From Raphanus sativus (lineage: Eukaryota > Streptophyta > Magnoliopsida > Brassicales > Brassicaceae), in the NCBI RefSeq assembly GCF_000801105.2, contig NW_026615338.1:1-64000 (forward strand): DNA of 64,000 nt. Reading direction: 5' to 3'. Both the position numbers and the translations under genes were made by a program. This document shows, in pieces, positions 1-50,136 of the stretch; the stretch's first letter is position 1; each line of letters begins with the position of its first letter. The notes under the pieces were generated by a model. The model ran no database searches and had not been told where the DNA came from. It saw nothing but the letters and a program-made list of their open reading frames with translations.

Positions 1-454
1 AAAAAGAGTCATTAAGGAACAGGCTCCTGTTTGACTTGTGTAACGAAATAAGAAAACATAGTCTAAAAATAACATAAGGTACTTATGTGGTTCGAGAGTA
101 TCATGCTAGGTGATTTGATTAGCAAGACAAGGCCTCGTTAAAAACCTATCTTAGCAAAACCCAGTGGGAAAAACTAAGACAGGAAAAGAGCACACTTCTC
201 TTGCTAGCCTAGATGATACTCAGCTTGATGGTGAGATAGCTTGGATGGTGATAAGGGTGTCTTGAAGTATCAAGCTTCCTCCAAGACATTCATCTTGATT
301 CAGAGACTTCCTAAGTAAACCTCCAATAGCTTCTTTGAGCTTCTTAACTCTAGCACGAGTCATTGGTCCTTCTGAAACTTCTAAGGCATCCTCTTGAGCT
401 GGTTGATCTTTAGTCTCATCTTCTTCATCATCTATCTGGTCCATGATCACATCA
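1..454 (-). repeat. G1 3' LTR (partial, runs off left edge)
   Basis: On the minus strand the LTR begins TGATGTGATC just after the purine tract at 455-472. The last 235 bp of the pol reading frame lie inside it. The rest is U3-like AT-rich sequence with a conserved hairpin at 145-183. The start was placed by analogy with G2 and G3, whose LTRs begin TGATG directly after the same kind of purine tract. Confidence 0.65.
145..183 (-). other. Conserved covarying hairpin (G1 copy)
   Basis: Arms 145-154 and 174-183 pair over 10 positions, with one G-U in the minus-strand RNA. The loop carries the conserved TCCCACTGGG core. In the minus sense it is followed by GGTTTTTAACGAGG. It lies in the LTR, downstream of the pol stop. 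Confidence 0.7.
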
Positions 455-2117
455 TCCCCTCCCTCTTGAAAAGGATTTGTCCTCAAATCTGGTTCATCTG
501 CAATAAAAGGGATCAAGTCAGTAACATTGAAACTATTACTCACGTTGTACTTACCTTGGAGATCCAGCTTGTAAGCATTGTTGCTGATCTTCCTTATGAC
601 CTCAAAAGGTCCATCTATTCGCAGCATGAGCTTAGACTTCCTCTCATCAGGGAACCTTTCTTTCCTTAGGTGAACCCAAACTTGGTCACCTTCTTTAAAG
701 ACCATCTCACGTTTGCCTTTGTTTGCATGCTTGACATACTGCTTAGTCTTTTCTTCAATGTTACGCCTTGCTTGCTCATGGAGTTGTTGCACCATCTCTG
801 CCTTCTTCTTTCCATCAAGACTAACTCTTTCACACTCAGGTAAAGGTATTAGATCTAAAGGAGAGGTGGGATTGAACCCATAAACAATCTCGAATGGTGA
901 AAACTTAGAAGCAGAATGCACAGCATGATTATATGCAAACTCACAATGAGGTAAATAGTCTTCCCATGATTTCAAATTCTTTTTAATGAATGCACGCAAG
1001 AGTGTTCCTAGAGTTCTATTTACTACTTCAGTTTGTCCATCAGTTTGCGGATGACAAGTAGTAGAGAACAATAACTTAGTGCCTAACTTAGACCAAAGTG
1101 TCTTCCAAAAGTAACTAAGAAACTTAGTGTCTCTATCAGATACTATAGTTCTAGGCATGCCATGTAAACGCACAATCTCTTTAAAGAACAAATTAGAAAC
1201 ATGCAATGCATCATCAGTTTTGTGACAAGCAATGAAGTGAGCCATTTTGGAGAACCTATCAACAACTACAAAGATTGAATCCTTTCCGGTTCTAGTCCTA
1301 GGCAATCCAACAATAAAATCCATAGAGATGTCATTCCAAGGATGATAAGGAATGGGTAAAGGAGTATACAAACCGTGAGCTTGAATTTTGGACTTAGCTT
1401 GCTTACAAGTTGCGCATCTCTCACAGATTCTCTCCACATCTCTCTTCATGCGAGGCCAAAAGAAATGATCCTGCAAAACTTTAAGAGTCTTGGCAATACA
1501 AAAATGCCCCATAAGACTTCCTCCATGTGATTCCCTAACAAATAAGTCTCTCAAAGAGCAATTAGGAATACACAAACGATTATCATAGAAGAGAAACCCA
1601 TCTTGTCTAAAGTAATGACCAGAAGCAAACTTTTCACAAGATTTATATGCATCTTTAAAATCAGGATCGGTTTCATACATTCCTTTAAGTTGTTCAAATC
1701 CTAACAACTTAGCATCAAGAGTGTTCAAGAGGACATACCTTCGAGATAGTGCATCAGCCACTATATTGTCCTTACCTTGTTTGTATTTGATCACATATGG
1801 AAAGGTTTCTATGAACTCAACCCATCTGGCATGTCTCTTGCTGAGCTTGTTTTGCCCCTTTAAGTACTTAAGAGACTCATGATCCGTGTGTATCACAAAC
1901 TCCTTAGGCCAGAGGTAGTGTTGCCAAGTTTGCAAAGCTCTCACAAGCGCATAGAGTTCCTTGTCATATGTTGCATAGTTGAGTGTAGCTCCTCCAAGCT
2001 TCTCACTGAAGTAAGCTATTGGTCTCTTATCCTGCATTAAGACAGCACCAATACCTATACCGGAAGCATCACATTCAATCTCAAACATTTTATTAAAGTC
2101 AGGAAGAGTAAGGAGAG
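220..2117 (-). pseudogene. G1 pol C-terminal segment (RNase H, integrase, tail)
   Basis: The segment begins where A interrupts the frame and reads leftwards. It holds RNase H (FEIECDASG, then THDHESLK-like and DALSRR), the IN zinc-binding HHCC region (HGGSLMGHF to ERCATCKQ), and the IN catalytic residues in DISMDF, SDRDTKF and the Glu of HPQTDGQTE. It ends in a C-terminal domain ([18 protein letters not shown]). The tail [15 protein letters not shown] lies past the purine tract, in the LTR. This piece has no internal stop. It is one third of a broken gene: the first residues of the open frame upstream of 2117 belong to the LTR of A, not to G1. Confidence 0.85.
455..472 (-). other. G1 polypurine tract
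   Basis: On the minus strand this reads TTTTCAAGAGGGAGGGGA just before the LTR start TGATG. It is in frame and codes for part of NPFQEGGDD. It would prime plus-strand synthesis. Confidence 0.6.
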
Positions 2118-2630
2118 TGTTGAGATGAAGCATAGTGACATAAGAGTAATCAGAGGAGAAGAAGAGATTCAAATGATACAAGGAAATGGTGTTACCTTGA
2201 AACACAAGTATGGCCGTACAACTTGGGAGACAAGGCAACACTACAACTTGTAAACAAGCCTTGAACAGCAAGGAGATCCTTCCTAAGTCGCCTCTGATGT
2301 GTTTGAAAGAAGAGAGAGACGTTGGAGTGTGAAGACAAGAAGGAGGATGTCGGCAAGAGTTTAATATTGTATTACTCTTGCCTTGGAGCCGTTCATGAGA
2401 GGTCGCTATCCAAGACCAGGCGACCAGACCACTTGCTCATTTGTTTATGCTTTTCTCCTTTGTTCTCTTATGCTGCTTATGTCGATATAACTACATTGTA
2501 TGTGAACCATTTCAAGTTAAGTGAATGAAACATGAAACCACTTCACTAAACTCTCTCTCGGATTCTCTCAATCTCACTCTCTTAGTTACTAATTCTCATC
2601 ACTCTTCACACTTAATCTTTAATTCTCACA
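2118..2630 (+). repeat. A 5' LTR
   Basis: It starts TGTTGAGATG and ends TTCTCACA, directly before a primer-binding site. It is 513 bp against 515 bp for the partner at 47916-48430. The difference is one CT unit near 2549. Confidence 0.95.
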
Positions 2631-9196: not shown

Positions 9197-9250
9197 GACC
9201 ATGTGGAACAAGTCAAGCTTGGAAGACCATGAAGCATTCCCTCATTAAAA

Positions 9251-9291
9251 CCTTGATATGCAAAACCCAGTGGGACAAAAACATATCAAGG
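9251..9291 (-). other. Conserved covarying hairpin (F copy)
   Basis: Arms 9251-9260 and 9282-9291 are a perfect 10-bp inverted repeat (CCTTGATATG / CATATCAAGG) around a 21-nt loop with the TCCCACTGGG core. It lies between the pol stop and the polypurine tract. Confidence 0.8.
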
Positions 9292-9320
9292 AAAGAGTAG
9301 AACACTTCATGGAAAGGGGA

Positions 9321-12300
9321 TCACTGAGATGAAAGATCCACGAGTCCAAGCTTTGAATGGATGAACTCGCAAACCTTTGCACTTGCAGCCTTGGTGAAGA
9401 TATCAGCCAACTGGTCTTCACTTCTGGTGTAACATGGAAGAATGATCTTCTGCTCAACAGCTTGTCTGACCTTGTGACAATCCACTTCAATGTGTTTAGT
9501 CCTCTCATGGAACACATTGTTGGATGCTATGTGTATTGCAGCTTGATTATCACAATGCATAGTGATTGGTGTTGCAGCTTCAATTCCCAAATCTTTTAGC
9601 AACCCCTTGATCCAAATCAACTCGCTTGTAAGCTTCCTCATGGCTCTATATTCAGCTTCAGCACTAGAGCAAGACACCACCTTCTGCTTCTTGCTCTTCC
9701 AAGTTACCAAATTTCCTCCAATAAAAGTGCAGTATCCAGTAGTTGATCTCCTATCAACTCTGTCCCCTGCCCAATCAGCATCACAATATCCAACTATCTC
9801 AGTGTTGTTGTTGCATCCCATCCATACTCCTTGTCCTGGCGCCTCTCTTAGATACCTCAGTATCCTTTCAACCATGCTCCAGTGATACATCTTGGGATTT
9901 TGCATGTGCTGGCTTACTTGATTGACTGCAAAACACACATCTGGTCTTGTGATGGTGAGGTATATCAGCTTTCCAACCATCCTTCTATAATGCTTAACAT
10001 CAGTGTATGGTTGATTCTCAATCTCCCCCTCACGCATCACTTTGTACCCATCTTCAAGTGGAGTCTTTGCAGCTTTTCTTCCTAGATCACCAGCCTCTCT
10101 TAGCAGATCCAATGTATACTTCCTTTGAGACAGGAATAGACCTTCCTTGGATCTGCATATCTCAATGCCTAGGAAGTATTTGAGCTCTCCCAAATCCTTG
10201 ATATCAAATGATGACTTGAGATATGCCTTAGTTGCAAGTATGCCCTCTTTATCACTGCCAGTGATGATGATATCATCCACATATACCAAGATCACAATGA
10301 TTCCCTTCTTGCTGGTCAGTGTGAACAATGTGTGGTCAGCCTCAGATTTCACAAAACCTCTTCCATTGAGCGTGGTGCTTAGTTTGTGATACCAAGCTCT
10401 AGGTGATTGCTTCAATCCATAGATGGCTTTCTTCAGTCTAAGGACATTTCCAGGCTTCACTAGATGCTCTAGACCAGGGGGTGGTTTCATGTAAACTTCA
10501 TCTTCCAACTCTCCTTGTAGGAAAGCATTCTTCACATCCATCTGCCATAGATCCCACTCTAGATTTACTGCCAAAGATAGGACTATCCTTATGGTATGCA
10601 GCTTGGCTACTGGCGCAAAGGTGTCTAGATAATCCTCTCCATAGGTCTGAGTGAAGCCTCTTGCTACCAGTCTTGTCTTACGCCTCTCTACTGTACCATC
10701 AGCATTGTATTTGATTGTGAAGATCCACCTGCTTGTTACTGCCCTCTTGCCTTTGGGTAACTCTGCTTCATACCATGTATCATTGATGATCATGGCACTA
10801 GTCTCACTTCCCACTGATTCCCTCCATTCAGCATGTTCCATGGCTTCTTCATATGACCTTGGGATGTACTCTTGATCCAACTCCCCAATAAACACCACAT
10901 GCTCTTGAGGATATTGAGCTAGAGAGCACACTGCTTGTATAGGATGAGCTACAGCTTGAGAGTTGAAGTAGACCCGGTTGTTCTTCCAGTTTGATGCTGG
11001 TTGCTTGATCCTAGCACTTCTTCTTAGTTGTGGATTTGTTGAACCTTCTTCAGGTGTCACTGATCCACTATTCTGTTGGTTTGAGCTCACCACTGTCTCC
11101 TCTTGAGTACTGTGATCTTGCCCCTCTTGCGCATGATGCTCAGCTTGATCATGACTTGCTGAAACATCCTCTTGATGTTGTTCGGATCGATTGTCCCCCT
11201 CAGGATCAAGGTGAGTGATTTCTGTGTCCCCATTATCACTTACTAATCCTGGTTGCACTGGTACTGTCTCTTGTACTTCAGGTATCCTCTTAATGGGTAT
11301 ACTGATGCCAAGACTCTCCATTACTCTTCTGAGGCTATCAGCTCTATCTGAAGTAGGTTGGGATAGATTCTCCAAATCTTCCCAATTCTTCCCATCATAG
11401 TAACTCCTAGACTCCATGAACTTGACATCTCGTGAGATTAAGACCCTCCTGGTCTCTGGTACATAACACTTGTAGCCTTTCTGGTGAGGAGAATACCCAA
11501 TGAACACTGCCTTTGTGCTTCTTGCATCAAGCTTGTTCCTCTGCCCTCCTGGTACCAATACAAAGCAGATACATCCAAACACCCGCATGTGATCCAGAGA
11601 TGGTTTGCTCTTGTTGAGAACTTCATAAGGAGAGATGTCATTGAGAACTCTAGTTGGGGTTCTGTTGATCAGATGACACGCAGAAACCACAGCATCACTC
11701 CATAACCTCTTTGGAACACTCATGTGGAACATCATTGATCTAGCCACCTCCATAAGATGCCTGTTCTTCCTTTCAGCAACTCCATTTTGCTGAGGAGTAT
11801 AAGGACAACTGGTCTGATGAATAATCCCTTGTTGAGATAAAAATTGCTTGAAAGCTCCACTTGTGTACTCTCCACCATTATCTGACCTGAGAATCTTCAC
11901 CTTAGCACTGAAGTGGTTGGTGACATGAGAATGATAATTCTTGAAAGCTTCCAAGACTCTATCCTTAGACTGGATCAGTGTGACCCAAGTGTACTTGGAC
12001 TTCTCATCAATGAAGGTAACAAAGTACTTGTGATTCTCTCTGGACATACAAGGTGCAGTCCACACATCCGAGTGAACCAGGTCAAAACACTTCTCATAAA
12101 TCGTGTTGGACCTTGGGAATACTGTCTTGCAATGCTTCCCCAAGATGCATGCTTCACACTCATCATTTTTAAACACCACTCCAGGAAGCATCAGATTGAG
12201 TGCTCTAGTGTGTGGATGTCCCAACCTAGCATGCCATATAGTGCTCTCAACCCCAGCAGATGTACTGACCAAGCAACATGAGGAAGATTCAGCTAGTTGT

Positions 12301-13325
12301 GTCTTTTGGAGATGATACAGCTCCTGATGGCTGTGACCTCTTCCAATAACCTGTCCTGTCTTTAAATCTTGAAACTCAACCTCATCTGGTCTGAAGACAA
12401 CCTGACAACTCAGATCAACAGTAGCTCTCCTCACAGATAACAGGTTAGATGTAAACTTAGGCATATATAAGGCAGTTGATTCCCTATCAAACAACCTAAG
12501 GTTCCCTATCCCTTCTATCTTCACCTTATCACCATTAGCTATCAGAACATTTCCAGTAGCAGGCTGGATATCACTAATCAAGTTCCTATCACTAATCATG
12601 TGATGACTAGCTCCTGAATCTATAATAATGGGTTTAGAGTCAGGAGATGATATACCAGCCTTCTTGGATGAGATGAGGGATTGAGCAGCTTTGATGAATA
12701 GATCAAGGTCTCTTCTGGTTGCTAGGGCATCAGGGTTTGTTGCGCCAGTCTCACTTCTCCACCATTCTCCTCTAGTGGTGTCACTACTGAGCGCTGAGTA
12801 CAGGGTTCTTCCCTGAATCACTGGATGCTCAAACTCCTTGAGCTCATATCCAGCTGATTGACTTCTAAGAACACCAACTTCTCCTAAGTCTGGTACCTTT
12901 CCTTCTCTAAGGAAATAATTTATCAGGTTCTTGTAGGTTGAATCCAGGTGCAGCAGTAAGCTCAGAAACTTGTCCTGCTCATAAACAACTTGAAGACACT
13001 CCCATAAACTTCCATAGCCAGTCTGAAGAGTCTCCCACAGGTTCCTGGCGGTTTGAATGTGGGAGTGTGCCTTCAAGATTGGTGTAGACAGAGAGTTGTG
13101 TATGATTCCAAGTGTTTGCTGGTCTTCTTGAACCCACTTGTGGTCACGCCTCATGCGTGTGAGCTTGATATCCTCTTGAGTCATCTTCTTTGAAGTTCCA
13201 GTCTCCATGATGTGGCTGTCCCAAAGTCCATGACTCCCCAAGGTGAATCTGGCCACTCTTGACCATATCAAATAATTAGACCCCTCTAGGGTTACTGAAA
13301 TAGAAATCTCTGATTTTTCCATCAT
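9321..13325 (-). CDS. F Gag-Pol polyprotein (Gag lacks CCHC knuckle)
   Basis: 1334 residues, uninterrupted. The start is the first of two ATGs (MMEKSE). The Gag start resembles relatives (SVTLEGSNYLIWSR), but about 60 residues of the core are missing after GYGSLWEC, and the CCHC knuckle is absent. PR DSGASHHM is at about residue 236, against 373 in D. IN HHCC, HSDVWTA, RSDNGGEY and VAERKN are all present, as are RT MDVKNAFLQG, YVDDIIITG near 1015 and RNase H DADWAGD. Pol therefore looks functional while Gag is about 125-140 residues short. It may depend on Gag made by a relative such as D (inference). Confidence 0.9.
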   Translation of the reverse strand: MMEKSEISISVTLEGSNYLIWSRVARFTLGSHGLWDSHIMETGTSKKMTQEDIKLTRMRRDHKWVQEDQQTLGIIHNSLSTPILKAHSHIQTARNLWETLQTGYGSLWECLQVVYEQDKFLSLLLHLDSTYKNLINYFLREGKVPDLGEVGVLRSQSAGYELKEFEHPVIQGRTLYSALSSDTTRGEWWRSETGATNPDALATRRDLDLFIKAAQSLISSKKAGISSPDSKPIIIDSGASHHMISDRNLISDIQPATGNVLIANGDKVKIEGIGNLRLFDRESTALYMPKFTSNLLSVRRATVDLSCQVVFRPDEVEFQDLKTGQVIGRGHSHQELYHLQKTQLAESSSCCLVSTSAGVESTIWHARLGHPHTRALNLMLPGVVFKNDECEACILGKHCKTVFPRSNTIYEKCFDLVHSDVWTAPCMSRENHKYFVTFIDEKSKYTWVTLIQSKDRVLEAFKNYHSHVTNHFSAKVKILRSDNGGEYTSGAFKQFLSQQGIIHQTSCPYTPQQNGVAERKNRHLMEVARSMMFHMSVPKRLWSDAVVSACHLINRTPTRVLNDISPYEVLNKSKPSLDHMRVFGCICFVLVPGGQRNKLDARSTKAVFIGYSPHQKGYKCYVPETRRVLISRDVKFMESRSYYDGKNWEDLENLSQPTSDRADSLRRVMESLGISIPIKRIPEVQETVPVQPGLVSDNGDTEITHLDPEGDNRSEQHQEDVSASHDQAEHHAQEGQDHSTQEETVVSSNQQNSGSVTPEEGSTNPQLRRSARIKQPASNWKNNRVYFNSQAVAHPIQAVCSLAQYPQEHVVFIGELDQEYIPRSYEEAMEHAEWRESVGSETSAMIINDTWYEAELPKGKRAVTSRWIFTIKYNADGTVERRKTRLVARGFTQTYGEDYLDTFAPVAKLHTIRIVLSLAVNLEWDLWQMDVKNAFLQGELEDEVYMKPPPGLEHLVKPGNVLRLKKAIYGLKQSPRAWYHKLSTTLNGRGFVKSEADHTLFTLTSKKGIIVILVYVDDIIITGSDKEGILATKAYLKSSFDIKDLGELKYFLGIEICRSKEGLFLSQRKYTLDLLREAGDLGRKAAKTPLEDGYKVMREGEIENQPYTDVKHYRRMVGKLIYLTITRPDVCFAVNQVSQHMQNPKMYHWSMVERILRYLREAPGQGVWMGCNNNTEIVGYCDADWAGDRVDRRSTTGYCTFIGGNLVTWKSKKQKVVSCSSAEAEYRAMRKLTSELIWIKGLLKDLGIEAATPITMHCDNQAAIHIASNNVFHERTKHIEVDCHKVRQAVEQKIILPCYTRSEDQLADIFTKAASAKVCEFIHSKLGLVDLSSQ

Positions 13326-13518
13326 GTGTAGCTGGATAACATCAAGAGTAGCTAGTATCCAGTGGAAAAGACTTCAAAGGAATTATCAGAGTGAGAAAAA
13401 GAAATTTAAAGAAGAATTGGATGAACTTTGCTATTTTTGGCAAAATCTGGATAAGAGAATGAAGAACACACCAAGAACAGTATGAACTTTGCCAAAAATA
13501 GAAATAAAAACACAGAGA

Positions 13519-14004: not shown

Positions 14005-15932
14005 ACTAACCATTTTAATGTCAAGATTAAAATTCTTAGATCAGATAATGGTGGTGAATACACTAGTACAGCCTTCAAACAACATCTTGCCTCGCAAGGA
14101 ATCATCCACCAAACCAGTTGCCCTTACACACCTCAACAAAATGGTGTGGCAGAGAGGAAGAATAGGCACTTGATGGAAGTGGCCAGGAGCATGATGTTTC
14201 ACTCAAACGTGCCTAAGAGGTTTTGGGGAGATGCAGTGGTTACTGCTGCCTATCTCATCAACCGCACACCCACAAGAGTCCTTCTCAACGCCACCCCTTA
14301 TGAGGTACTGAACAAAACCAAATCATCCATAGATCATTTACGTGTGTTTGGGTGTGTGTGCTTTGTTTTGATTCCAGGAGAGCTCAGGAACAAGTTAGAG
14401 GCTAAGAGCAGAAAGGCAATGTTTATTGGTTATTCAACACATCAGAAGGGTTACAAATGCTATGTACCAGAGACAAGGAGGGTTCTGGTGTCAAGGGATG
14501 TTAAGTTCATGGAGTCACAAGGCTACTATGATGAGAAGAGTTGGGATGAGCTCAAGGATCTTTCTCAATCAGCCACTGACAGAGCTAACAACCTTAGAGT
14601 GATTATGGAAAGACTTGGTATCAATCTACCAAAGATACCAGAGAAGGTCAGGGAGACCTCCACACAAGCTGCTGAGGATACAGTAGAAGATGATGGAGTA
14701 TCTCACCTTGATCATGAGGGGGGCAATGGAAGTGATCAGCATGCGCCAGCTCAACCTGAAGAGAACTCAGTAGTGTCTCATGATCAAGATGAGATAGGAG
14801 AACAACCACAAGCAGCTACTGAAATCCAACAAGGAGAGCCGAGTGACAACAATGGAACTGATCAGATACAGCCCTTGAGGAGAAGTACAAGAACCAGGAG
14901 ACCAGCCTCAGATTGGAAGAACACAAGGGTGTACTTTAATGCTGAAGCTGTGGCACATCCAGTGAGTGCAGTATGTTCTCTTGCGCAGTACCCACAAGAA
15001 CATCAAGTTTTCATAAGTGAACTTGATCAGGAGTACATCCCAAAGACCTATGAAGAGGCTATGCTACATGAAGAATGGGGAGAGTCTGTTGGTGATGAAA
15101 TGGGAGCCATGATCAGGAATGATACATGGTTTGAAACTGAACTCCCAAAGGGCAAGAAGGCAGTGACAAGTCGCCTCTTGTTTACCATCAAGTATGGAGC
15201 TAATGGGAAGCCAGAAAGGAGGAAAACAAGACTAGTTGCAAGGGGATACACTCAAGTGTATGGTGAAGACTATCTAGATACATTTGCACCAGTGGCCAAG
15301 CTGCATACCATAAGAGTTGTTCTATCTCTTGCTGTCAACTTGGAGTGGGATCTATGGCAGATGGATGTGAAGAATGCTTTCTTACAAGGAGAATTGGAGG
15401 ATGAAGTGTATATGAGACCACCTCCTGGCCTAGAAGATATGGTGAAACCAGGGAATGTTTTGAGGCTAAAGAAGGCTATCTATGGCTTGAAGCAATCTCC
15501 AAGAGCCTGGTATCACAAGCTCAGCACCACTCTCAATGGGAAAGGATTTGTAAAATCCGAGGCTGACCACACTCTCTTCACTCTAACCAGCAAGCAAGGT
15601 ATTGTTGTGATTCTAGTGTATGTTGATGACATTATCATCACTGGTAGCAACAAGGAAGGTATCCTCTCAACTAAATCATTTCTTAAAAGTGCATTTGATA
15701 TTAAAGATTTGGGAGAATTGAGGTACTTCCTTGGGATTGAAATATGCCGCTCTAAAGAGGGGCTCTTCTTATCTCAAAGGAAGTACACACTTGACATTTT
15801 AAATGAGGCAGGAGACCTTGGAGGTAGACAAGCCAAAACACCATTGGAAGAAGGCTACAAGGTACTGCGAGAGGGGGAGTATGAAGCTACTCCATTCAAA
15901 GATGTCAAGAAGTATAGAAGAATGGTGGACAA
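14005..15932 (+). pseudogene. E integrase-RT segment
   Basis: Continues E after F. It has the second IN Asp (RSDNGGEY), the Glu of GVAERKN, IN C-terminal KAMFIGY, then a Ser/Glu-rich variable linker. The RT motifs TRLVARGYTQ, MDVKNAFLQG, YGLKQSPRAW and YVDDIIITG follow. It stops at YRRMVD, where G2 interrupts it. No internal stop. The open frame running from 13861 to 16215 is a chimera of F LTR, E pol and G2 LTR; only this middle part is real. Confidence 0.9.
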
Positions 15933-16651
15933 TGATGCAAACCTAGCTGAACAAGGAGCCAATGCGGAGCATGAGGAGCTGATTCAGCTGAGTGATACTG
16001 AAGAGGAGACAAGTGAGCTAGATGTTGCTGAAGAGGAGACAAGTAAAGCCCACGACAACCATGAACTCATAACCAAGTTAGGCCCGGTTACAAGATCACA
16101 AACCAGGAGATTGAAGAATGCAAATTCGATGTTGGTTTATTCTAAACCAGAACCAACTTCGATGGAGAATCAAGTCAAGGAATTCTTCAATTACTCAGTC
16201 TTCGAGATTGCCTAGTTCTAAGTGTTTTCTTCTTAGTTTCACACAAGTCTTGTTGCAAGTTTCCACATTCTTTCTTTGTCATTGTTCTACATAAACCGTG
16301 AGAATCCAAAGTATGATTCATTCACTTTTTCAATAAAAATCTTTCCTTTGTTATTGTGAATCCTTTGTTCAGTTTCTGAACACTGTTTGCCTAGGAGTTG
16401 ATTCTCTGCAAGGCTTTGGCTTTAGATCATTGTTTGTGGGCGTAATACTCACGATCTCTAGCACATCTACACAAGTGTTTGATCTCTCCATCGATCTACA
16501 CTGAAGTTCATCACCATATCTATCTCAATCCATCAACCATCTCACCATCTTTCAAGGAGACAATACCATCCTTGTTCTAATCCGCAAAACACAACCCATA
16601 TCACCCTCAGATCCATCCAAAAGGGAAAACAAACCATCAAGGGTTTCATTA
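15933..16651 (+). repeat. G2 5' LTR
   Basis: It begins TGATGCAAAC. By comparison with the TSD at the far end it terminates in TTA. Its first ~214 bp match the sequence that codes for the Pol tail in the 3' copy. Confidence 0.9.
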
Positions 16652-16653
16652 AG

Positions 16654-16665
16654 TGGTATCAGAGC
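16654..16665 (+). other. G2 primer-binding site
   Basis: TGGTATCAGAGC, 2 nt after the LTR end; iMet type, common in chromoviruses. Confidence 0.85.
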
Positions 16666-17086
16666 AGATTGAGGGCTTTTGATTCAGGGTTTGTACTCGA
16701 TTTCCTTCTTCTCTTTGGGAACCTCTTTTGATCATTCTGTGAATCTATCCATCTCTTCTCTATCTATCTAAAAGTGCGAGGGGGCCGACCAGTATAAAAA
16801 AAAGAAAGATCAAAGCATCTAAGGCTGAAGAGAAATCCAGCCAGACTGAAGAGAAATCCAGTCTCTGGTGGTAAAGCCTCTTGCGAACTAAATCTCTTAA
16901 TACTGTCTATCTTTTCTTCTCTTTGGGGTAGGGAATTGACTTCAAAAGGCTTGAACTCTGTTTGCTATTGAACTCCTGGATTCACAAACTGAAACACTTG
17001 AGAGAAACACTTGAGAGAAACACCAGTGAGGCTTCGGCTATCATATTGTGTTCTAACCTTTCTTGTTGAGTTTCTTAATAGGAATC
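16666..17086 (+). other. G2 leader, possible 5' UTR intron
   Basis: Non-coding. A donor-like GGTG|GTAAAG lies at 16871 and a pyrimidine-rich acceptor TTTCTTAATAG ends at 17081, five bases before the Gag ATG. A 211-nt intron is possible but unproven. Confidence 0.4.
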
Positions 17087-20000
17087 ATGTCGGATGAAGA
17101 GCATGAGCGGGAAGATCATCCAAATCTATTCAACAAAGTCCAGATGGATGCTATGATGTCAACTCTGATGAAAGCAATAGATAAGAAACTTGAATTTGAA
17201 AGAAATTCCTTTGCTACTAACAATGTTTTAGGTAGTGCTTCTCAGGCTAGGAAAGCTGCTAGAGAGAAAAGGAGAGGCAAGAGAGTAGCTACTGGCTTGA
17301 CTGATGATGATATCACCTCTTCCGGAAGGAGTTCGGATGAAGTAAGATCAGTTAGAGCACCATCTCAGACCAGAACCAACCGTGCAGAGAGACACAGGCC
17401 AGATGATAGTCTTGGTAACATCAAGCTCAGAGTACCAGTCTTCAGTCGTACCAGCAATCCAGACGAGTACCTTGATTGGGAAAAGAAGATAGAGTTGATC
17501 TTTGAATGTCACAACTACTCAGAGTTAAAAAAGGTTAGACTTGCAGCAACTGAGTTCAATGGTTATGCTCTTCATTGGTGGGATCAGATCACTTCAACAA
17601 GAAGAAGAACCGGAGAAGCAGCAGTGTCAGGCTGGTTTGAACTCAAGACTCTCATGAGGAAACGATTTGTTCCAAGTCATTACCACAAGGATGTTCATCT
17701 GAAACTAAGGAGGCTCACTCAAGGAACTAAGAGCGTGGAGGATTACTATCAGGAGATGGAGACTCTCATGATAAAAGCATCTGTTGTTGAGGATTCTAAT
17801 GCAACTATGGCTCGGTTCCAAGCTGGTCTCAACAGAGAAATACAAGATCGATTGGAGCTGCAAGATTATGATGACATCTATGAGCTTCTTCACAAAGCTA
17901 TCCTCATTGAGCAACAACAGAAGAGAAAGAACAGCTCCAAGGGTTCATACGGCAACAACTACAGGACAACCAAGGATGAGAAAAGCCTAGCTAAACCCAA
18001 GGAAGAACACAAAGCCTATCAGCGTGATGATAAGGGAAAAGCACCAGCAACTAGATCAAGAGATGTGAAGTGTTTCAAGTGCCATGGCATTGGTCACTAT
18101 GCGAATGAATGCACTAACAAGAAGGTGATGATTCTCTTGGATAATGGAGATATTATATCTGAGGAAGAGAAAGCTGATACTTCCGAGGAAGAGTTAATAG
18201 ACTATCCAGTCCGAGGACAGCTCCTGGTTACAAGAAGGTCTCTTCAGGTCCAATCCAAACCAGAAGACATTGATCAAAGGGAGAATCTTTTTCACACTCG
18301 TTGTACTGTTTATGATAAAGTTTGCAGCTTGATTATAGATGGTGGAAGTTGTACTAACGTGGCTAGTGAATCTCTTGTAGCAAAGCTTGGGCTGAAAACA
18401 GGGAAGCATCCTAGACCCTACCCACTTCAATGGCTTAATGAGGGAGGCGAGCTGAAGGTTACTGAGCAAGTTATGGTTCCTATAACCATTGGGAGGTATC
18501 AAGATGAGATAGTGTGTGATGTACTACCCATGGATTCAAGTCATATTCTCTTAGGCAGGCCTTGGCAGTATGATAAGAAAGCTATCCATGATGGGTTTAC
18601 AAATCGCCACTCCTTCACTCACAGAGATAAAAAGATTGTGCTTGCACCTTTGTCACCTCAAGAAGTACATGAAGATCAGCTACAACTAAGGCTCAGGCGA
18701 CAAGAAGCCAAGGAGAACTCATCTGACTCAAAGAAGGGAACTAACCCTTTGGCCAAAAACAGTGAGATCAGGAAAGCTTTGATTCTCCAACAACCTTTGC
18801 TTTTGTTTATCTTCAAAGGTTCACTACTAACTTCTTCTAACCATGCTCCGGAGCTTCCGAAAGGGTTTGAGTTTATCTTGCAGGAATATGGAGATGTCTT
18901 TCCAAGAGAGAGTCCAGCTAGCTTGCCACCTTTCAGAGGGATTGAACACCAAATAGATCTGGTTCCAGGCGCTTCTCTTCCAAATAGACCAGCCTATAGA
19001 ACCAACCCAGACGAAACCAAGGAGTTGCAAAGGCAGGTTGATGAGCTGATGGCTAAAGGACACATTAGAGAAAGCATGAGCCCTTGTGCCGTGCCTGTAC
19101 TACTGGTGCCAAAGAAGGATGGAAGCTGGCGCATGTGTGTTGACTGCAGAGCCATCAACAATATCACTGTAAAGTACAGACATCCTATCCCTAGACTTGA
19201 TGATATGCTTGATGAATTGCATGGGTCTTGCATTTTCTCTAAGATAGATTTAAAGAGTGGATATCATCAGATTAGGATGAAAGAAGGAGATGAATGGAAA
19301 ACTGCTTTTAAAACAAAACATGGTTTGTATGAGTGGCTTGTTATGCCTTTCGGTTTAACTAATGCTCCTAGCACCTTCATGAGACTAATGAATCATGTTT
19401 TGAGAGCCTTCATAGGACACTTCGTGGTAGTTTATTTCGATGACATCTTGATCTATAGCAAAAGTTTGTCTGAGCACACTGAACATTTGAGAATTGTTTT
19501 AGAAGTACTTAGGAAAGAATCTCTTTTTGCTAATCTTGATAAATGTACTTTTGGAGCAGATCACCTTGTGTTTCTAGGCTTTGTTGTTTCAGCTCAAGGG
19601 ATCAGGGTGGATGAAGAAAAAGTAAAAGCCATCCGAGATTGGCCAGTTCCTAAGAGTGTGAGTGAAGTCCGGAGCTTTCATGGACTAGCTGGGTTCTACA
19701 GAAGGTTTGTCAGAGACTTCAGCACTATTGCAGCACCCCTCACTGAAGTTATCAAGAAGAATGTGGGGTTCAGATGGGAAGAGGCACAAGAAGAAGCTTT
19801 TCAGAACCTAAAAGGGAAGTTGACTGAAGCACCTTTGCTTGCACTCCCTGATTTTTCTAAGACTTTTGAAATTGAATGTGATGCTTCTGGAATAGGTATT
19901 GGAGCAGTGCTGATGCAAGAGAAGAAACCCATTGCCTACTTTAGTGAAAAGCTTGGAGGTGCTATGCTGAACTACCCGACTTATGACAAGGAGCTTTATG

Positions 20001-22577: not shown

Positions 22578-22608
22578 TCCCCTTGCCTTGAAGTATTCTA
22601 CTCTTTTT

Positions 22609-22651
22609 CCTTTGCTTGGTTTTTATCCCAAGTGGTTTTTCCAAGTAAAGG
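22609..22651 (+). other. Conserved covarying hairpin (E copy)
   Basis: Arms 22609-22619 and 22641-22651 pair over 11 positions with one G-U, around a loop with TATCCCAAGTGG. It is followed by GGTTTTAATGAGGGA. Confidence 0.78.
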
Positions 22652-22703
22652 TTTTAATGAGGGAATGCTTCATGGTTTCCAAGCTTGATCAATCTCTATG
22701 GTC

Positions 22704-24849: not shown

Positions 24850-24886
24850 TTTATACACTCTCCTGATCATGTGATCTCTACTCTTT

Positions 24887-24927
24887 CCTCATTAAGGTTT
24901 TGTCCCAATGGGTTTTCTTTAATGAGG
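24887..24927 (+). other. Conserved covarying hairpin (B copy)
   Basis: CCTCATTAAGG (24887-24897) and CTTTAATGAGG (24917-24927) pair at all 11 positions, with one G-U. The 19-nt loop has GTCCCAATGGG. The arm sequence is quite unlike that of E or F. Confidence 0.8.
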
Positions 24928-24981
24928 TTTTAACGAGGGAGATCTCATGGTCCTTCCAATCTTAACTTGTTTCACATGGTT

Positions 24982-28195: not shown

Positions 28196-29064
28196 GACCA
28201 TAGGAGATCCTTGGGCAAGCTTGGAACTATGAAGAAGCTCCCTCATTAAAAACCTTGCAAAGAAAACCTCATGGGATAAAACTTTGCAAGGGAAAAAGAG
28301 TAGAGTTCAACACAGCTTGGGGATTGGCCAGTGAGTCTAAGGAACTCAGATAACTCATGGTGGAGTCCTTAGACTCTGGATCATGGCCTGACTTGTGCTG
28401 CAAGGATGAACTCCATAACTTGCACACACCAACATCTCGGAACTCTTCTTTAGGCCGGTTGTGTCTCCCCCTCTCTTCTGACTACTCGCCATCTTGAAAG
28501 GGCTTAGGGACCACCAGCTTCTACTTCAGAGAGCTCCACTAAGGTACCTGATACATTATCCCAAAGGTGCATCAGTTCTTAAGGCAAAGCATCCAATCAC
28601 AACAAGCTCAATAACATTTCAAGTGTAAGAACAATCATAAATGTATTGAGATGAGTTTAAGGCACTTCCCTTTCATCAGTATGGTGGGGAGTGAATTCCA
28701 CTTGAATCCCCACTTGGTAAGGACACAATCCGGATCATGGAAGCTCAATCTCATGCTTGGAACTGAGAAATGGAAGGACCAAGCTCGTATGGAAGGCATA
28801 TGTTCTCTAGATGGCTTCTTTGATCCGGTTGGTAGTTTCAAATTGTTCCTCTTGAACACTTCTTATTTCACAGCTTGTCTCCCCCTTGCTTCTAGCTTCT
28901 TGCCTTCTTCTTGGTTGAGATCAAGCCAACATGTCTTTGAGATGATAATGAGGAGTGTTTACCCTCCTGGCTTTCACTTGAATCCCCCACTTCAATCCCT
29001 TTCTGAATGGCCTTGCAAGGCACTTGTAATACAGACTTTGTAGGGCCAATTGCTTCACCATCAA
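28196..29064 (-). other. C internal non-coding region, left part
   Basis: Contains the conserved hairpin (28253-28291), then no credible reading frame. Two diverged copies of a phrase like TCTCCCCCT..CTTCT..CTTCTTGCC lie near 28465 and 28878, and phrases like CACTTGAATCCCCAC near 28700 and 28975. This suggests diverged repeats about 400 bp long; a third copy lies past D near 34830. D is inserted at 29065 (TSD atcaa). Confidence 0.6.
28253..28291 (-). other. Conserved covarying hairpin (C copy)
   Basis: Perfect 10-bp arms (CCTTGCAAAG / CTTTGCAAGG) around a 19-nt loop with the TCCCATGAGG core. Kept although C has lost all of pol. Confidence 0.8.
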
Positions 29065-29617: not shown

Positions 29618-29669
29618 GACCATAGTGATTGGTTAAGCTTGGAAACCATGAAGCATTCCCTCATTAAAA

Positions 29670-29712
29670 CCTTTACTTGGAAAAACCACTTGGGATAAAA
29701 ACCAAGCAAAGG
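29670..29712 (-). other. Conserved covarying hairpin (D copy)
   Basis: Arms 29670-29680 and 29702-29712 pair at 11 positions with one G-U in the minus-strand RNA; same arms as E. Confidence 0.78.
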
Positions 29713-29743
29713 AAAAAGAGTAGAACACTTCATGGCAAGAGGA

Positions 29744-39492: not shown

Positions 39493-40421
39493 TGATGAGG
39501 ACATTGAACCTGATCTTACTGAACCAGACATTCAGGACATGATCAGCAACATTACCAAACCAGAGACTGAGCAAGAAGTGCCCATACCAACCGTGTTTAA
39601 GGGAGCTATCACTAGACAAAGAGCTAAGATACTTCAACATAAATTTAATGAGAGCATGATACTTGCTTCTGATCTTGGACAGGTTAAACAAGCTGAGGAA
39701 GATATCAAAGATGTGATCAAGAGAGATGCTGTGAAGATAGAGGAACCAAATGGGAGTTCTCAAGCATCAAGAGAAGATCTTTGGCCACTCATACCTGATC
39801 AGAGTCACAACCATTTGATGATCATTACCATAGAAGAACCCAATGCTTAAGAAGGTTCTTGGACATGGTTAGCTACGAGGCAAGCTCCTTGTGTGTGCTC
39901 TTTTCCTTACTCTTGGTTTTGTCCCACGAGGTTTTCCAGGAGGAGGTTTTTAACGAGGCCACAACTAGCTTACAAATCACCTTGAAGCATCTCGGTCCAA
40001 GACTAAGAAGAAACCATTTCTTCTTTGTTTCCTTATTTGAACCTTATGTTATTTTAAGTTCATTTCATTTGCATAGACAAGGGATATGTCCTTAGTCTTT
40101 ATATTGTTTTGCGAGACTCATGGGAGAAACACTTTTGATATTTTTTTAATAAACTTTCTTTGAAAGAAAACCTAGAGCTCTCTCAAACAGAACTCGCCGC
40201 CTCCTTGCCTTGTGAGACCAGCACCTCCACGGTTTGAAGGTTCCTTAGTGTTGTATCACGAGCTCTCCATCCCTCGTGTGGTGCACATCAATCCATCTTG
40301 TTCCTCACCCACGGCTTCTCTTGTTTGATTAGATCAAAACAATAGAACCACCTCTTGGTCTAGATCGGCTCCATCTCTCTTGCTTGGATCATACAGCCTT
40401 TGTCAGCTTAGGCTTGTATCA
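39493..40421 (+). repeat. G3 5' LTR
   Basis: TGATGAGGAC to TTGTATCA, 929 bp. The hairpin copy is at 39906-39946. Confidence 0.95.
39906..39946 (+). other. Conserved covarying hairpin (G3 5' LTR copy)
   Basis: Arms 39906-39916 and 39936-39946 pair at 10 of 11 positions (two G-U). The 19-nt loop has GTCCCACGAGG. It is followed by TTTTTAACGAGGCC. Confidence 0.65.
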
Positions 40422-40452: not shown

Positions 40453-40825
40453 ATCAGGTTGTATCTATCCTCCTTAGTTGTTTCAAATCTTGTAGTTCAT
40501 CTTGTTTCATTCGTTTTGCTTTTATCAAAACCAAAAAAAATATTTAGTTCAGTTGTTCTTGTTTCGTTTAGGTTTCGTGCATCCATATCTCTTGAAAACC
40601 CATATCTTGTTACTTGTTCATCTCGTTCTAGTTCATATTGTTTCATCCATTCGATTCAAAAAAAAAAAAAAAAGAAGAAATCTTTCAAGTTGCATCAACC
40701 GTGTTCTTCAAGCATATTTCAAACTTTCCTTTTTAGCTTGATCGGTTTTCCCTTTTACTTTATTCTCTTTCCATTAATCTTATTTTCGAGATTTACCTAA
40801 GTTGTTCTTCTCTTTGACAGGTACA
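40453..40825 (+). other. G3 leader, possible 5' UTR intron
   Basis: Non-coding with an A-run near 40658-40673. A donor-like CAG|GTTGTA lies at 40458 and an acceptor TTCTCTTTGACAG ends at 40820, five bases before the Gag ATG. Splicing is only inferred. Confidence 0.4.
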
Positions 40826-43800
40826 ATGGGAGAAGCATCCGAGTTGGCTACTATGATGCAAGCCTTCAATGCAATGAGGGAAGAGTTGAAGGAGATGCGC
40901 CAAGACCTTGGAGATAGGCTAACCAGAGTTGAGCAGAGACCCACGGCTCAAGCTACTCAAACTGCTGAGAGGTTTCCAAACCGAAACCAGCAGTACCAAG
41001 CTCCAAACAACAGGCGTACTGGAGTGCACTTCAATGATGATCCAGAGACTAGTACTCGGAATCAGCAGAATGAAGAAGATACTGGACAACAACATGGTCC
41101 TTATCCGAGAGCAAGAGTTCAACAAGATGACTATGGAGAAGAGGCAGAGGAGGAAGAGGATTACTTACCTCCACGTAGAGCTCCACGGAGACCCATCCGC
41201 AACCAAGGCTATGAGGAAGATGACTATGCAACTCCGCAGAGAGGACATCGCCAACAACACCACAACCAAGGACCGGATCTTTTAAAGATGACACCACCAC
41301 AGTATGCTGGAAAGGTTGATCCTGAAGCTTACCTTGATTGGGAAAAGAGGATGGATCACATCTTCTCTTACTACAACCATCCTGGTCCCAAGAGAGTTGC
41401 TTTGGCAGTAGCTCAGCTCACGGACAATGCCTTATCCTGGTGGGATAGGTTGTGCTCTGACCGTAGGAGAGGGCACTTGAGGCAACTAGACGCCTGGTTA
41501 GACATGAAAGATGCTATGAGGCTGAGGTTTGTGCCACAACATTATCACCGAGACTTGCACAAGAAGTTCAGAACACTTAAGCAAGGAAGCAAGTCAGTTG
41601 AGGAGTACTATGAGGAGTTTGAGAAGTTAAGAAACCGCCTTGATCTCAATGAGGATGAAGAGACGATCATGGCTCAGTTCATAGATGGGTTGCAAGATAG
41701 AGTGAGTGGCAAGGTTGAGAGACAAGCTTATGGAGATCTCAAAGACCTATTCCACATAGCCGTGCAAGCTGAGCAACATATCAAGAAGAAGGGCACCAAG
41801 GGTAGATCCCAATCCAACTGGAACTCCAACAACAACAGCAACTACAACAAACCAGTAGACAAGGGCAAAGGGGTTGAGGGAGACACTCGCTCAAAGTCTC
41901 AAGCGACTGATAACAACAAAGACACCAGGGCAGAGCCATCTAAGACTACCACTCCTCAACGTGCTAGAGATATCACTTGTTTCAAGTGTAGGGGCCGAGG
42001 ACATATGGCTAGAGAGTGTCCGAACCAGAGAGTGATGATGCTCACTGAAGATGGGTATGAATCACATGATGAGGATGCACCTGAGTTGCAAGCCGACTAT
42101 GGAGAGATGCAATATCCAGACGTGGGAGAGAGCTTGATGATCAGGCGTGTGCTTAGTGTCATGTTGGAACCAGCTGAGACTATCCAAAGAGAAAACATCT
42201 TCCATAGCAGATGCACTATTAAAGGCAAGGTATGTAACCTCATCATTGATGGTGGGTCTTGTACTAATGCCGCGAGTGCTTACATGGTTGATAAGCTTGG
42301 CTTAGTCAAGGTCCAGCATCCGCATCCATATAGGTTAAGATGGTTAGATGATAAGGTTGAGCTGCAGATCAAAGAGCAAGTTACTATCCCTTTTAGCATT
42401 GGTAAGTATCAAGATGAGGTAGTTTGTGATGTAGTGCCTATGCAAGCTGGGCATGTTTTGTTAGGTCGACCTTGGCAATGGGATAGAGAGACAAGACATG
42501 ATGGTAGATCAAATATGTATACATTCATGCATAACAAGCGTAAGATTAGTCTAGCTCCTCTCACTCCTGCTCAAGTTCATGAATTGCATTTGCAAATGGT
42601 TAAGGAGAAGGAAAAATCTGTTAAGTCAAATTTCCTAATCCAGCCTAGCTATATAAGAAAGGCAACTGCTACCAAACACACAATGCTACTAATGATCTTT
42701 AAGGAGCTTTTGAGTGCAGGTTCAGGTGAAGTGGAGTATCCACCAGAGGTTACTAAGCTTCTTGACAAGTTCAAAGACTTGTTTCCAGAAGAGATTCCAC
42801 ACGGCCTACCACCACTAAGGGGCATTGAACATCAAATAGATTTCATACCAGGAGCTGCTCTGCCAAACAAGCCAGCTTATAGAGTAAACCCCGAGGAGGC
42901 CAAGGAGTTGGAAAGACAAGTTCAGGACCTATTGGACAAGGGGTACGTGAGGGAGAGCCTAAGTCCTTGTGCGGTTCCTGTCTTACTAGTACCAAAGAAG
43001 GATGGGACTTGGAGGATGTGTGTAGACTGCCGTGCAATCAACAACATCACCATCAAGTATAGACACCCCATTCCCCGGCTTGATGACATGCTAGATGAGC
43101 TAAGTGGAGCCACCATCTTCTCCAAGATTGATCTTAAGAGTGGGTACCATCAGGTAAGGATGAAGGAAGGTGATGAGTGGAAGACAGCTTTTAAAACAAA
43201 GCAAGGTCTCTATGAGTGGCTGGTGATGCCATTTGGACTCACCAATGCTCCTAGTACTTTCATGAGACTCATGAATCACATCCTTAGACCCTACATCAGT
43301 AAGTTTGTTGTGGTATATTTTGATGATATTTTAATTTATAGTACAAACTTACTTGATCATGTGTCACATCTTGAGCAAGTATTAGAAACACTTCGCAAGG
43401 AAGGACTCTATGCAAACCTCAAGAAGTGCACATTCTGCACTGATAAACTTGTTTTCCTAGGTTTTGTTGTGAGTTCACAGGGATTACAGGTTGATGAAGA
43501 GAAGGTTAGAGCAATCCAAGAATGGCCAGTACCCACAAGCATCAGTCAAGTCAGAAGTTTTCATGGGCTAGCCAGTTTCTACAGGCGGTTTGTTCAGGAT
43601 TTCAGTAGCATAGCAGCACCTCTCACTGCCATTGTCAAGAAGAGTGTTGGATTCATGTGGGGGAAAGCTCAAGAAGAGGCTTTTCAGGCTCTCAAATACC
43701 GGCTAACTCATGCACCAGTGCTAGTTTTACCAGACTTCAATAAGACATTTGAAGTAGAGTGTGATGCTTCAGGAATTGGGATTGGGGCAGTACTACTACA

Positions 43801-45733
43801 AGGAGGCAAACCAGTGGCTTTCTTCAGTGAGAAACTCAGTGGAGCTGCTCTTAACTACCCTACATATGACAAGGAGTTATATGCCTTGGTGAGAGCTTTG
43901 GAGACATGGCAGCACTATCTCTTATCCAAGGAATTTGTGGTGCACACTGATCATGAGACCCTTAAACATCTAAGAGGGCAAACCAATCTCAAGAGAAGAC
44001 ATGCTAGGTGGCTGGAGTTTATAGAAACCTTTCCATACATCATCAAGTATAAGAAGGGTAAAGAGAACATTGTAGCTGATGCACTCTCCAGGAGACATGC
44101 CTTGATCGCCACAATGGAAGCTAAGGTGCTAGGATTTGAGTTCATCAAGGAACTATATGGGGAGGATCCGGATCTTGCTGACACCTACACCAGCTGCACT
44201 AAAGGACCTCACGGGAAGTTCTACTTGCATGAGGGGTTCTTGTTCAAGAGCAAGAGATTATGTATTCCTCAGTGTTCTTTGAGAGACCTGATCACTAGAG
44301 AAGCTCATGGAGGAGGTCTCATGGGACATTTTGGAATAGACAAGACACTTGCTGTAGTCAGAGAGCATTTCTATTGGCCGCACCTAAAGAAGACAGTAGA
44401 AGCTCATTGTGCAAGATGTGTGGTATGCAAGAAAGCTAAGTCAAGAGTACAACCCCATGGTCTTTACATGCCACTGCCCATTCCCACAGCCCCTTGGGTG
44501 GACATATCCATGGATTTTGTACTAGGACTACCCATGATTCAACACAAAGACTCAATCTTTGTTGTGGTGGATAGGTTTTCCAAGATGGCACACTTCATAC
44601 CTTGTGCCAAAGTGAATGATGCATCCAGGACAGCTGACTTGTTCTTCAGGGAAGTGGTTCGCTTACATGGGATTCCAAGAACCATTGTATCAGATAGAGA
44701 CACCAAGTTCCTCAGCCACTTCTGGAAGACACTATGGAAAAAGCTTGGGACAAAGCTACTCTACTCAACTACTTGTCATCCACAAACTGATGGGCAGACA
44801 GAAGTTGTTAACAGAACTCTCTCCACCTTGCTTAGAGCCACTATTGGAAAGAACATGAAGAATTGGGTTGATTGTATTCCCTTCATAGAGTTTGCATACA
44901 ACCGGGCTCAACACTCAGCTACAAAGATGTCACCATTTGAAGCTGCTTATGGGTTCAATCCAAAGACACCTCTCGATCTTACTCCTTTACCTCCAACTGA
45001 AGTTATTAGTCTCACGGGTGAAGCCAAGGCTGCTTATGTCAAGGAATTACACCACAAAGTCCAGGAGAATCTAGAGAAGCGAACTGACCAGTATGCTAAA
45101 CAAGCTAACAAGGGTCGCAAAGAGGTTATATTTGAACCAGGAGAGTGGGTTTGGTTACACATGAGGCAAGAGAGGTTCCCTAACCAGAGGAGTTCTAAGT
45201 TGAAGCCAAGAGGCACTGGTCCCTTTCAAGTTCTCGAGAGGATCAACAACAACGCCTACCGTCTTGACCTGCCAGGTGAGTTAAATGTATCATCCACTTT
45301 CAATGTTACTGATTTGTCTCCTTGTTTTGCAGATGAACCAGTTTTGAGGTCAAAACCTTTTGAAGAGGGAGGGAATGATGAGGACATTGAACCTGATCTT
45401 ACTGAACCAGACATTCAGGACATGATCAGCAACATTACCAAACCAGAGACTGAGCAAGAAGTGCCCATACCAACCGTGTTTAAGGGAGCTATCACTAGAC
45501 AAAGAGCTAAGATACTTCAACATAAATTTAATGAGAGCATGATACTTGCTTCTGATCTTGGACAGGTTAAACAAGCTGAGGAAGATATCAAAGATGTGAT
45601 CAAGAGAGATGCTGTGAAGATAGAGGAACCAAATGGGAGTTCTCAAGCATCAAGAGAAGATCTTTGGCCACTCATACCTGATCAGAGTCACAACCATTTG
45701 ATGATCATTACCATAGAAGAACCCAATGCTTAA
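40826..45733 (+). CDS. G3 Gag-Pol polyprotein, intact
   Basis: About 1635 residues from the ATG giving [15 protein letters not shown] Gln/Arg-rich N-terminus is followed by Gag core about 150-320, CCHC knuckle [14 protein letters not shown] near 384, PR IIDGGSC near 473 (DGG rather than DSG, as also in G1 and G2), RT with [10 protein letters not shown] and YFDDILIYS near 829, RNase [12 protein letters not shown] and DALSRR, IN HHCC (HGGGLMGHF to CARCVVC), then IN DISMDF near 1225, SDRDTKF near 1290 and the Glu of HPQTDGQTE near 1326. The C-terminal domain ([18 protein letters not shown]) leads through the purine tract (PFEEGGND) into a tail encoded by the 3' LTR with [12 protein letters not shown]. 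No chromodomain seen. No defect seen. Confidence 0.94.
45363..45375 (+). other. G3 polypurine tract
   Basis: AAGAGGGAGGGAA abuts the LTR start TGATGAGG and lies inside the open reading frame. Confidence 0.7.
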
Positions 45734-46304
45734 GAAGGTTCTTGGACATGGTTAGCTACGAGGCAAGCTCCTTGTGTGTGCTCTTTTCCTTACTCTTGGT
45801 TTTGTCCCACGAGGTTTTCCAGGAGGAGGTTTTTAACGAGGCCACAACTAGCTTACAAATCACCTTGAAGCATCTCGGTCCAAGACTAAGAAGAAACCAT
45901 TTCTTCTTTGTTTCCTTATTTGAACCTTATGTTATTTTAAGTTCATTTCATTTGCATAGACAAGGGATATGTCCTTAGTCTTTATATTGTTTTGCGAGAC
46001 TCATGGGAGAAACACTTTTGATATTTTTTTAATAAACTTTCTTTGAAAGAAAACCTAGAGCTCTCTCAAACAGAACTCGCCGCCTCCTTGCCTTGTGAGA
46101 CCAGCACCTCCACGGTTTGAAGGTTCCTTAGTGTTGTATCACGAGCTCTCCATCCCTCGTGTGGTGCACATCAATCCATCTTGTTCCTCACCCACGGCTT
46201 CTCTTGTTTGATTAGATCAAAACAATAGAACCACCTCTTGGTCTAGATCGGCTCCATCTCTCTTGCTTGGATCATACAGCCTTTGTCAGCTTAGGCTTGT
46301 ATCA
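45376..46304 (+). repeat. G3 3' LTR
   Basis: 929 bp, same as 39493-40421 by eye. Its first 358 bp encode the Pol tail. Hairpin copy at 45789-45829. Right TSD aaaga at 46305-46309. Confidence 0.95.
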
Positions 46305-47772: not shown

Positions 47773-47804
47773 TTCTCCCCTTCATGAAGTGTTCTACTCT
47801 TTTC

Positions 47805-47847
47805 CCTTGGCGTGGTTTTTGTCCCATGTGGTTTTACCTAGCCAAGG
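47805..47847 (+). other. Conserved covarying hairpin (A copy)
   Basis: Arms 47805-47815 and 47837-47847 pair at 9 of 11 positions around a loop with GTCCCATGTGG; GGTTTTAATGAGGGA follows. Confidence 0.7.
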
Positions 47848-47900
47848 TTTTAATGAGGGAATGCTTCATGACTTCCAAGCTTGACTTGTTTCACATGGTC

Positions 47901-47915
47901 AAGCTTGAGGGGGAG
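47901..47915 (+). other. A polypurine tract
   Basis: AAGCTTGAGGGGGAG abuts the 3' LTR. Confidence 0.88.
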
Positions 47916-50024: not shown

Positions 50025-50136
50025 AAATTCCGAGTTGATTTAAACATTGAGATTTAGTCACTTACTTGAGACTAAGTCATTTTTCTTTTTCTGTTTACTG
50101 ATTCTACATTTTCATCCCTCTTTTCATTTCAGGTGT

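Follow-up and report, generated by a model that had tools for sequence, protein, structure and literature searches.

A fold with two U-rich loops in Ty1/copia and Ty3/gypsy retrotransposons of Raphanus sativus: a candidate double-domain ENE

Introduction

The window analyzed in this study is a stretch of 64,000 nucleotides of Raphanus sativus DNA (contig NW_026615338.1, positions 1 to 64,000). A preliminary description of its sequence reported that six Ty1/copia elements (A-F) each carry, between the pol stop and the polypurine tract (PPT), a hairpin whose arms differ between elements, yet pair with their own partners around a nearly constant loop. The copy in element F, at 9251-9291, raises the question of whether this hairpin is a selected RNA structure and what it may do for the element. 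Packaging, dimerisation, export and plus-strand priming had been proposed as roles, and whether such a structure was already known had been left open.

An element of the same layout has in fact been published for a plant copia retrotransposon, namely the ENE of Arabidopsis Copia93/Evade (PMC12501189). It comprises four U-rich tracts that are flanked by pairing sequences and have G-C pairs adjacent to them. The Evade ENE RNA combined with A20 melts in two phases, and either U-to-C changes or changes in the adjacent G-C pairs abolish this two-phase melting; deletion of the ENE reduces the RNA level, half-life, extrachromosomal DNA, and copy number (PMC12501189). The term dENE is not used in that study. 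For the rice hAT transposon TWIFB1, a double ENE is reported, with a crystal structure in which it is bound to a 28-mer poly(A) (PMC10855403, PMC10078130). According to the papers that cite the work, Tycowski et al. (2016) catalogued plant and fungal transposon ENEs, about 200 motifs, and the catalogued motifs are strongly associated with LTR retrotransposons (PMC12501189).

Results

All six hairpins were found at the positions given as central stems in Table 1, on the minus strand in C, D, and F. Folding with 30-40 nt of flank around each hairpin revealed a rod-like fold of ~90 nt, in which the hairpin forms the central stem. This module consists, in order, of an outer stem, a U-rich internal loop (loop 1), the central stem, a second U-rich internal loop (loop 2), and a small C/G cap. 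The arms of the preliminary description were thus real, but the outer stem and the second U loop had been overlooked. Similarly, the trailing GGTTTTAAYGAGGGA was indeed constant, but it is not a mere tail; it forms one strand of the lower U loop and of the basal stem.

The outer stem is closed by CUC/GAG and is broken by one bulged purine, which is A in the six copia copies and G in the two gypsy copies described below. In loop 1, U3-5 (only three U in B and F) on the 5' side lies opposite U4-5 with AAC or AAU; in loop 2, U4-5 lies opposite U4-5. The central stem between them is 9-11 bp long. Two U-rich loops with facing U tracts, as well as G-C pairs at all four loop borders, were present in all eight distinct modules of the window; next to one of these borders, F and H have an additional U-G pair and C has a U-U. 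The stems vary with their pairing kept, and the loops and borders are fixed; the loop letters and the U tracts were unchanged across two copia lineages and gypsy. The constant letters UCCCA and AAYGAG exceed what U-A-U triples alone need. In the hand alignment, own partners paired at 11 of 11 central positions in B, D, E, and F and at 10 of 11 in C. Hairpin A paired at 9 of 11 positions, with a 2x2 internal loop that the preliminary description lacked. In gypsy G (39905-39947) and in many copies of the second copia lineage, the central stem has one bulged base following its fourth pair.

Table 1. Modules and host-element features in the window (CM, covariance model).
Feature	Position	Strand	Evidence and remarks
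Copia F module	9224..9314	-	Fold, CM E 9.7e-20 (training copy); central stem 9251-9291
Copia E module	22584..22678	+	Fold, descriptor, CM (training copy); central stem 22609-22651
Copia B module	24865..24953	+	Fold, descriptor, CM (training copy); central stem 24887-24927
Copia C module, pol end degraded	28224..28317	-	Fold, descriptor, CM (training copy); central stem 28253-28291
Copia D module	29643..29737	-	Fold, descriptor, CM (training copy); central stem 29670-29712
Copia A module	47780..47874	+	Fold, CM (training copy), missed by descriptor; central stem 47805-47847 with 2x2 internal loop
Gypsy G (CRM-like) 5' LTR module	39883..39971	+	Descriptor, CM E 8.7e-9, outside training set
Gypsy G 3' LTR module	45766..45854	+	CM E 8.7e-9; identical to 5' LTR copy
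Gypsy H module, after pol ORF	119..206	-	Descriptor, CM E 2.5e-9, outside training set
G gag-pol ORF	40778..45733	+	RVT_1, RNase H, integrase, SH3_Tf2-1
F gag-pol ORF (copia)	9321..13373	-	RVT_2
H pol ORF (Ty3/gypsy)	220-2436	-	
G LTRs	39493-40421 and 45376-46304		Identical pair

A covariance model trained on the six window copia copies only returned, at E up to 1, nine places in the window: the six training copies, the module in H, and both G LTR copies. G and H belong to Ty3/gypsy by Pfam; the gag proteins of copia and gypsy elements are of different Pfam families (Retrotran_gag_2 in copia vs. Retrotrans_gag in gypsy). The scope of the preliminary description, which was restricted to Ty1/copia, was hence too narrow. 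We call G CRM-like because its gypsy coding region enters the 3' LTR, by ~358 nt of the gag-pol ORF, and its LTRs end in TGATG...ATCA, both of which are features of CRM group A (PMC3059260). The module was present in six of the six window copia elements with a 3' pol end. The gypsy elements J and K yielded no module with the same model at E up to 1. The pol of J (15932-21923) is ~70-73% identical to that of two module-bearing loci elsewhere in the genome (L075 and L076), indicating that related gypsy elements can lack the module; the pol of L076 is 90% identical to that of H and 62% identical to that of G. The LTRs of element A (2112-2630 and 47910-48430) enclose ~45 kb of nested insertions, including B, E, F, D, C, J, and G, and several LTR pairs are 100% identical, which shows that these insertions are young.

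A structure-only descriptor, which contained no TCCCA or GAGG letters, matched eight places in the window, all of them module copies (five of the six copia hairpins, with A missed, and three gypsy copies), and no place in 200 dinucleotide-shuffled windows. A looser single-ENE descriptor matched two places, both within known modules (B and H), as compared with a mean of 0.04 and a maximum of 2 in 200 shuffles. The fold z-scores of A-F ranged from -4.3 to -7.9, and that of gypsy H was -5.4; the fold of gypsy G by itself was not significant (z -1.6; 11 of 200 shuffles folded equally well).

The pairing of the arms was then scored in an unfitted MAFFT alignment of the eight modules. In this alignment, 79.8% of the cells paired vs. 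69.5% after shuffling (reached by 0 of 500 shuffles), and only 37-53% paired when the partners were slid along it. The covariation score was 0.389 vs. 0.201 (0 of 500). Two of the five covariation measures were weak, with the observed number of pairs changed on both sides reached by 21 of 500 shuffles and that of further pair types by 185 of 500. When central arms were swapped between modules, the own 3' partner was the best or tied for all eight 5' arms; the own mean was -13.8 kcal/mol vs. -5.2 kcal/mol for swapped partners, and 2 of 40320 re-pairings were as good, the arms of D and E being identical. For the outer stem, the corresponding values were -17.1 and -8.9; the own partner was the best or tied in 7 of 8, and only 6 of 40320 re-pairings equalled the observed one. 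We also employed a tree-aware null on the hand-fitted alignment, in which a paired ancestor received an equal number of changes placed on the branches. None of 2000 replicates reached the observed pairing (85 of 88 cells in the central stem; 66 of 80 in the first ten positions of the outer stem), and the number of cells changed on both sides was reached by 0 of 2000 for the central and 1 of 2000 for the outer stem. In a strand energy test, the sense strand was favored for the outer arms (34 vs. 6 of 40) and not for the central arms (better in 8, worse in 20, and tied in 5 of 33).

The module is abundant outside the window. The R. sativus genome to which the window belongs (433 Mb) contains 1970 exact matches (984 + 986) to the 21-nt core GGTTTTNTCCCANNNGGTTTT, a count in which LTR-borne copies figure twice per element and from which modules that differ from the core at one position, for instance those of A, C, D, E, and F in the window, are left out; the reversed core had no match. 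Of 100 listed matches, 60 were sampled. Anchors on both sides were present in 59 of the 60 loci, and in each of these 59 the central arms paired over 7-11 bp. The central arms made up 33 distinct pairs, 7 of which came from the window; duplexes of own partners averaged -9.9 kcal/mol vs. -4.8 kcal/mol for swapped ones, and 0 of 100000 re-pairings were as good; the own partner was the best or tied in only 11 of the 33 rows because close relatives share arms. Among 40 distinct outer arm pairs from 67 modules, the values were -11.6 and -7.0, again with 0 of 100000 re-pairings as good, and 33 of the 40 own pairs reached -8. The covariation scores and swap tests in the window, together with these genome-wide re-pairing tests, support the earlier claims that the arms covary and that the RNA structure is selected.

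By the similarity of their upstream DNA, 40 of the 60 sampled loci belonged to a second copia lineage, 5 to CRM-like gypsy elements, and 3 to the copia lineage of the window, with 12 unplaced. Only nine of the 60 loci (four copia and five gypsy) had a direct match to pol close to the module; many of the loci without one appear to be decayed or non-autonomous copies. The pol of the second copia lineage is ~24-32% identical to that of D. The module is therefore present in two distant copia lineages and in CRM-like gypsy elements of one genome. Named pol relatives among the matches listed were mainly from Brassica and Arabidopsis, the best being 92% identical (Brassica oleracea). Pattern scans of IMG/VR and GTDB contigs returned no relatives, the three IMG/VR pattern matches being without flanking U tracts and arms as judged by eye, and an IMG/VR search with a piece of the reverse transcriptase returned none either. 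A literature search for the motif letters gave no plant-transposon occurrence among the matches listed, as judged by title.

The position of the module was also compared between elements. In all seven window elements with a readable pol stop (that of C is degraded), the outer stem begins 7-31 nt past the stop on the sense strand; in G, the 3' LTR module lies 31 nt past the stop at 45733. In the longer genome loci, the core lies 46-50 nt past the pol stop in four of five and 114 nt past it in the fifth (L074). In the six window copia elements, the module precedes the PPT, and 40-45 nt separate its end from the 3' LTR; in a locus of the second copia lineage (L073), it likewise follows the pol stop and precedes the PPT, and the LTR that comes next measures 135 bp. 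In G, by contrast, it follows the PPT and occupies LTR positions 390-479. What the elements have in common is a module at the head of the predicted 3' UTR, whereas its order with respect to the PPT varies. The G LTR has a TATA (608) and a poly(A)-signal-like AATAAA (656) downstream of the module, the AATAAA being 177 nt after it; the 5' LTR copy is upstream of both sites and hence probably not transcribed. In two loci of the second copia lineage (L072 and L073), a PPT-like GGGGGAGT occurs just before the module and a terminal GGGGGAGT-TGTT occurs after it.

Discussion

What could such a module do? On the basis of its four U tracts, two internal loops, G-C borders, and probable place in the 3' UTR, which are those described for the Evade ENE, we consider it very probable that the hairpin forms the inner part of a double-domain ENE, which would clamp the poly(A) tail of the retrotransposon RNA. 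The covariation of both stems, the loop letters and U tracts kept across lineages, the sense orientation close behind the pol stop, and the place ahead of the AATAAA in G also speak for this reading. In each U/U pocket, some four adenosines from the tail of that same RNA would be held in U-A-U triples. Clamping of the tail would slow deadenylation and give a longer-lived RNA, which in turn could permit more reverse transcription and a higher copy number. Lying just past the pol stop, the module would be included in the 3' portion of transcripts terminating in the 3' LTR. Counting against an ENE, the full length of an LTR separates the copia module from a poly(A) site in the 3' LTR. The same holds for the short 5' tract of loop 1 in B and F, the constant letters UCCCA and AAYGAG, the central arms that do not favor the sense strand, the fold of G that is not significant by itself, and the lack of an Rfam family at its gathering score over the module.

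Like the Evade ENE, the module lies, in copia elements, in the spacer between the ORF and the 3' LTR of a plant element and has four U-rich tracts with G-C pairs beside them, a likeness of layout. It differs from the Evade ENE in that another copia lineage and Ty3/gypsy elements carry it as well, that it lies inside the LTR in G, and that its copy number is high. As described, the TWIFB1 dENE similarly has two ENE domains in one transposon RNA; TWIFB1, however, is a DNA transposon of rice. The KSHV PAN ENE and the MALAT1/MEN-beta triple helices are described with a single U-rich pocket, as opposed to two in the module, and belong to nuclear RNAs of a virus and animals rather than to plant RNAs (PMC12846552, PMC11411715). 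With Rfam 15, modules G and E at a relaxed cut-off brought no family near its own cut-off. The module very probably belongs to a known kind of element, the ENE, and the sharing between copia and gypsy may be new. In a search that reached few subscription journals, no title or abstract opening among the papers listed described the motif in CRM or other gypsy elements.

The roles in the preliminary description fit less well than a double ENE, whose anatomy the module has. A packaging or dimerisation signal, that is, a structured site recognized by gag that brings full-length RNA into the particle, would explain a covarying stem with a constant loop in a replicating RNA and its occurrence in every window copia element with a 3' pol end. 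We regard this as unlikely because one and the same module occurs in copia and gypsy elements although their gag proteins are of different Pfam families, its constant parts are U tracts with G-C borders as in an ENE, and it lies at the far 3' end. Another 3' UTR function, such as export, localisation, poly(A)-site choice, or a source of small RNAs, appears about equally improbable. The location and the strong fold fit it, but constant U loops would be needless in a small-RNA source, and for a layout with two pockets a specific meaning is already on record (PMC12501189).

Plus-strand priming would have the module present the PPT, as in Sireviruses, plant copia elements that likewise carry a conserved paired element close to their 3' LTR (PMC2829016). 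The short distance of about 40-45 nt from the end of the module to the 3' LTR in window copia and the PPT-like tracts on both of its sides in the second copia lineage agree with such an aid. The Sirevirus inverted repeat, however, encloses the terminal PPT, whereas the module does not and in G sits on the other side of it (PMC2829016). Since the module precedes the PPT in copia but follows it, inside the LTR, in G, its place being fixed relative to the pol stop and variable relative to the PPT, we rejected plus-strand priming and consider it highly improbable. For classic copia elements, the Sirevirus study reports that the linker has no conserved motif (PMC2829016). Chance pairing or common descent without structural selection has an equally slight probability. 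The window holds only eight modules, of which D and E are near-identical, two covariation measures were weak, and own central partners prevailed in only a third of the genome-wide rows, where relatives share arms; against this stand the shuffled windows without a descriptor match, the tree-aware null with a paired ancestor on the hand-fitted alignment, and the genome-wide re-pairings, none of which was as good for either the central or the outer arms.

The letters common to both superfamilies suggest one origin of the module, by exchange or deep descent. More tentatively, and with somewhat more doubt than confidence, we propose that one RNA cassette, alike in loop letters, cap, and position past the pol stop, passed between Ty1/copia and Ty3/gypsy and was amplified to ~2000 core copies, with UCCCA/AAYGAG hinting at contacts to poly(A) or protein beyond U-A-U triples. 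Convergence under poly(A) binding is the alternative to one origin and still has to be reckoned with. If the cassette did pass in this way, it would constitute a portable anti-decay module swapped between superfamilies. If the double-ENE reading is correct, protection of the tail by a triple helix would be common equipment of abundant retrotransposons of two superfamilies in an Arabidopsis-related plant and no peculiarity of a single very active Arabidopsis element. The large set of natural variants, in which stems change and pockets are constant, would then allow tests of which letters poly(A) clamping requires and of how it affects copy number.

At the gathering cut-off, Rfam 15 reported only snoR71 in the whole window, away from the modules, at 50665-50771 on the minus strand (78 bits vs. 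a cut-off of 40). This match lies antisense inside a Retrotrans_gag-coding stretch (~50533-50808) of gypsy K (ORF 50044-53688). The snoR71 family may in part represent a retrotransposon gag segment, or K may carry a snoRNA-like sequence.
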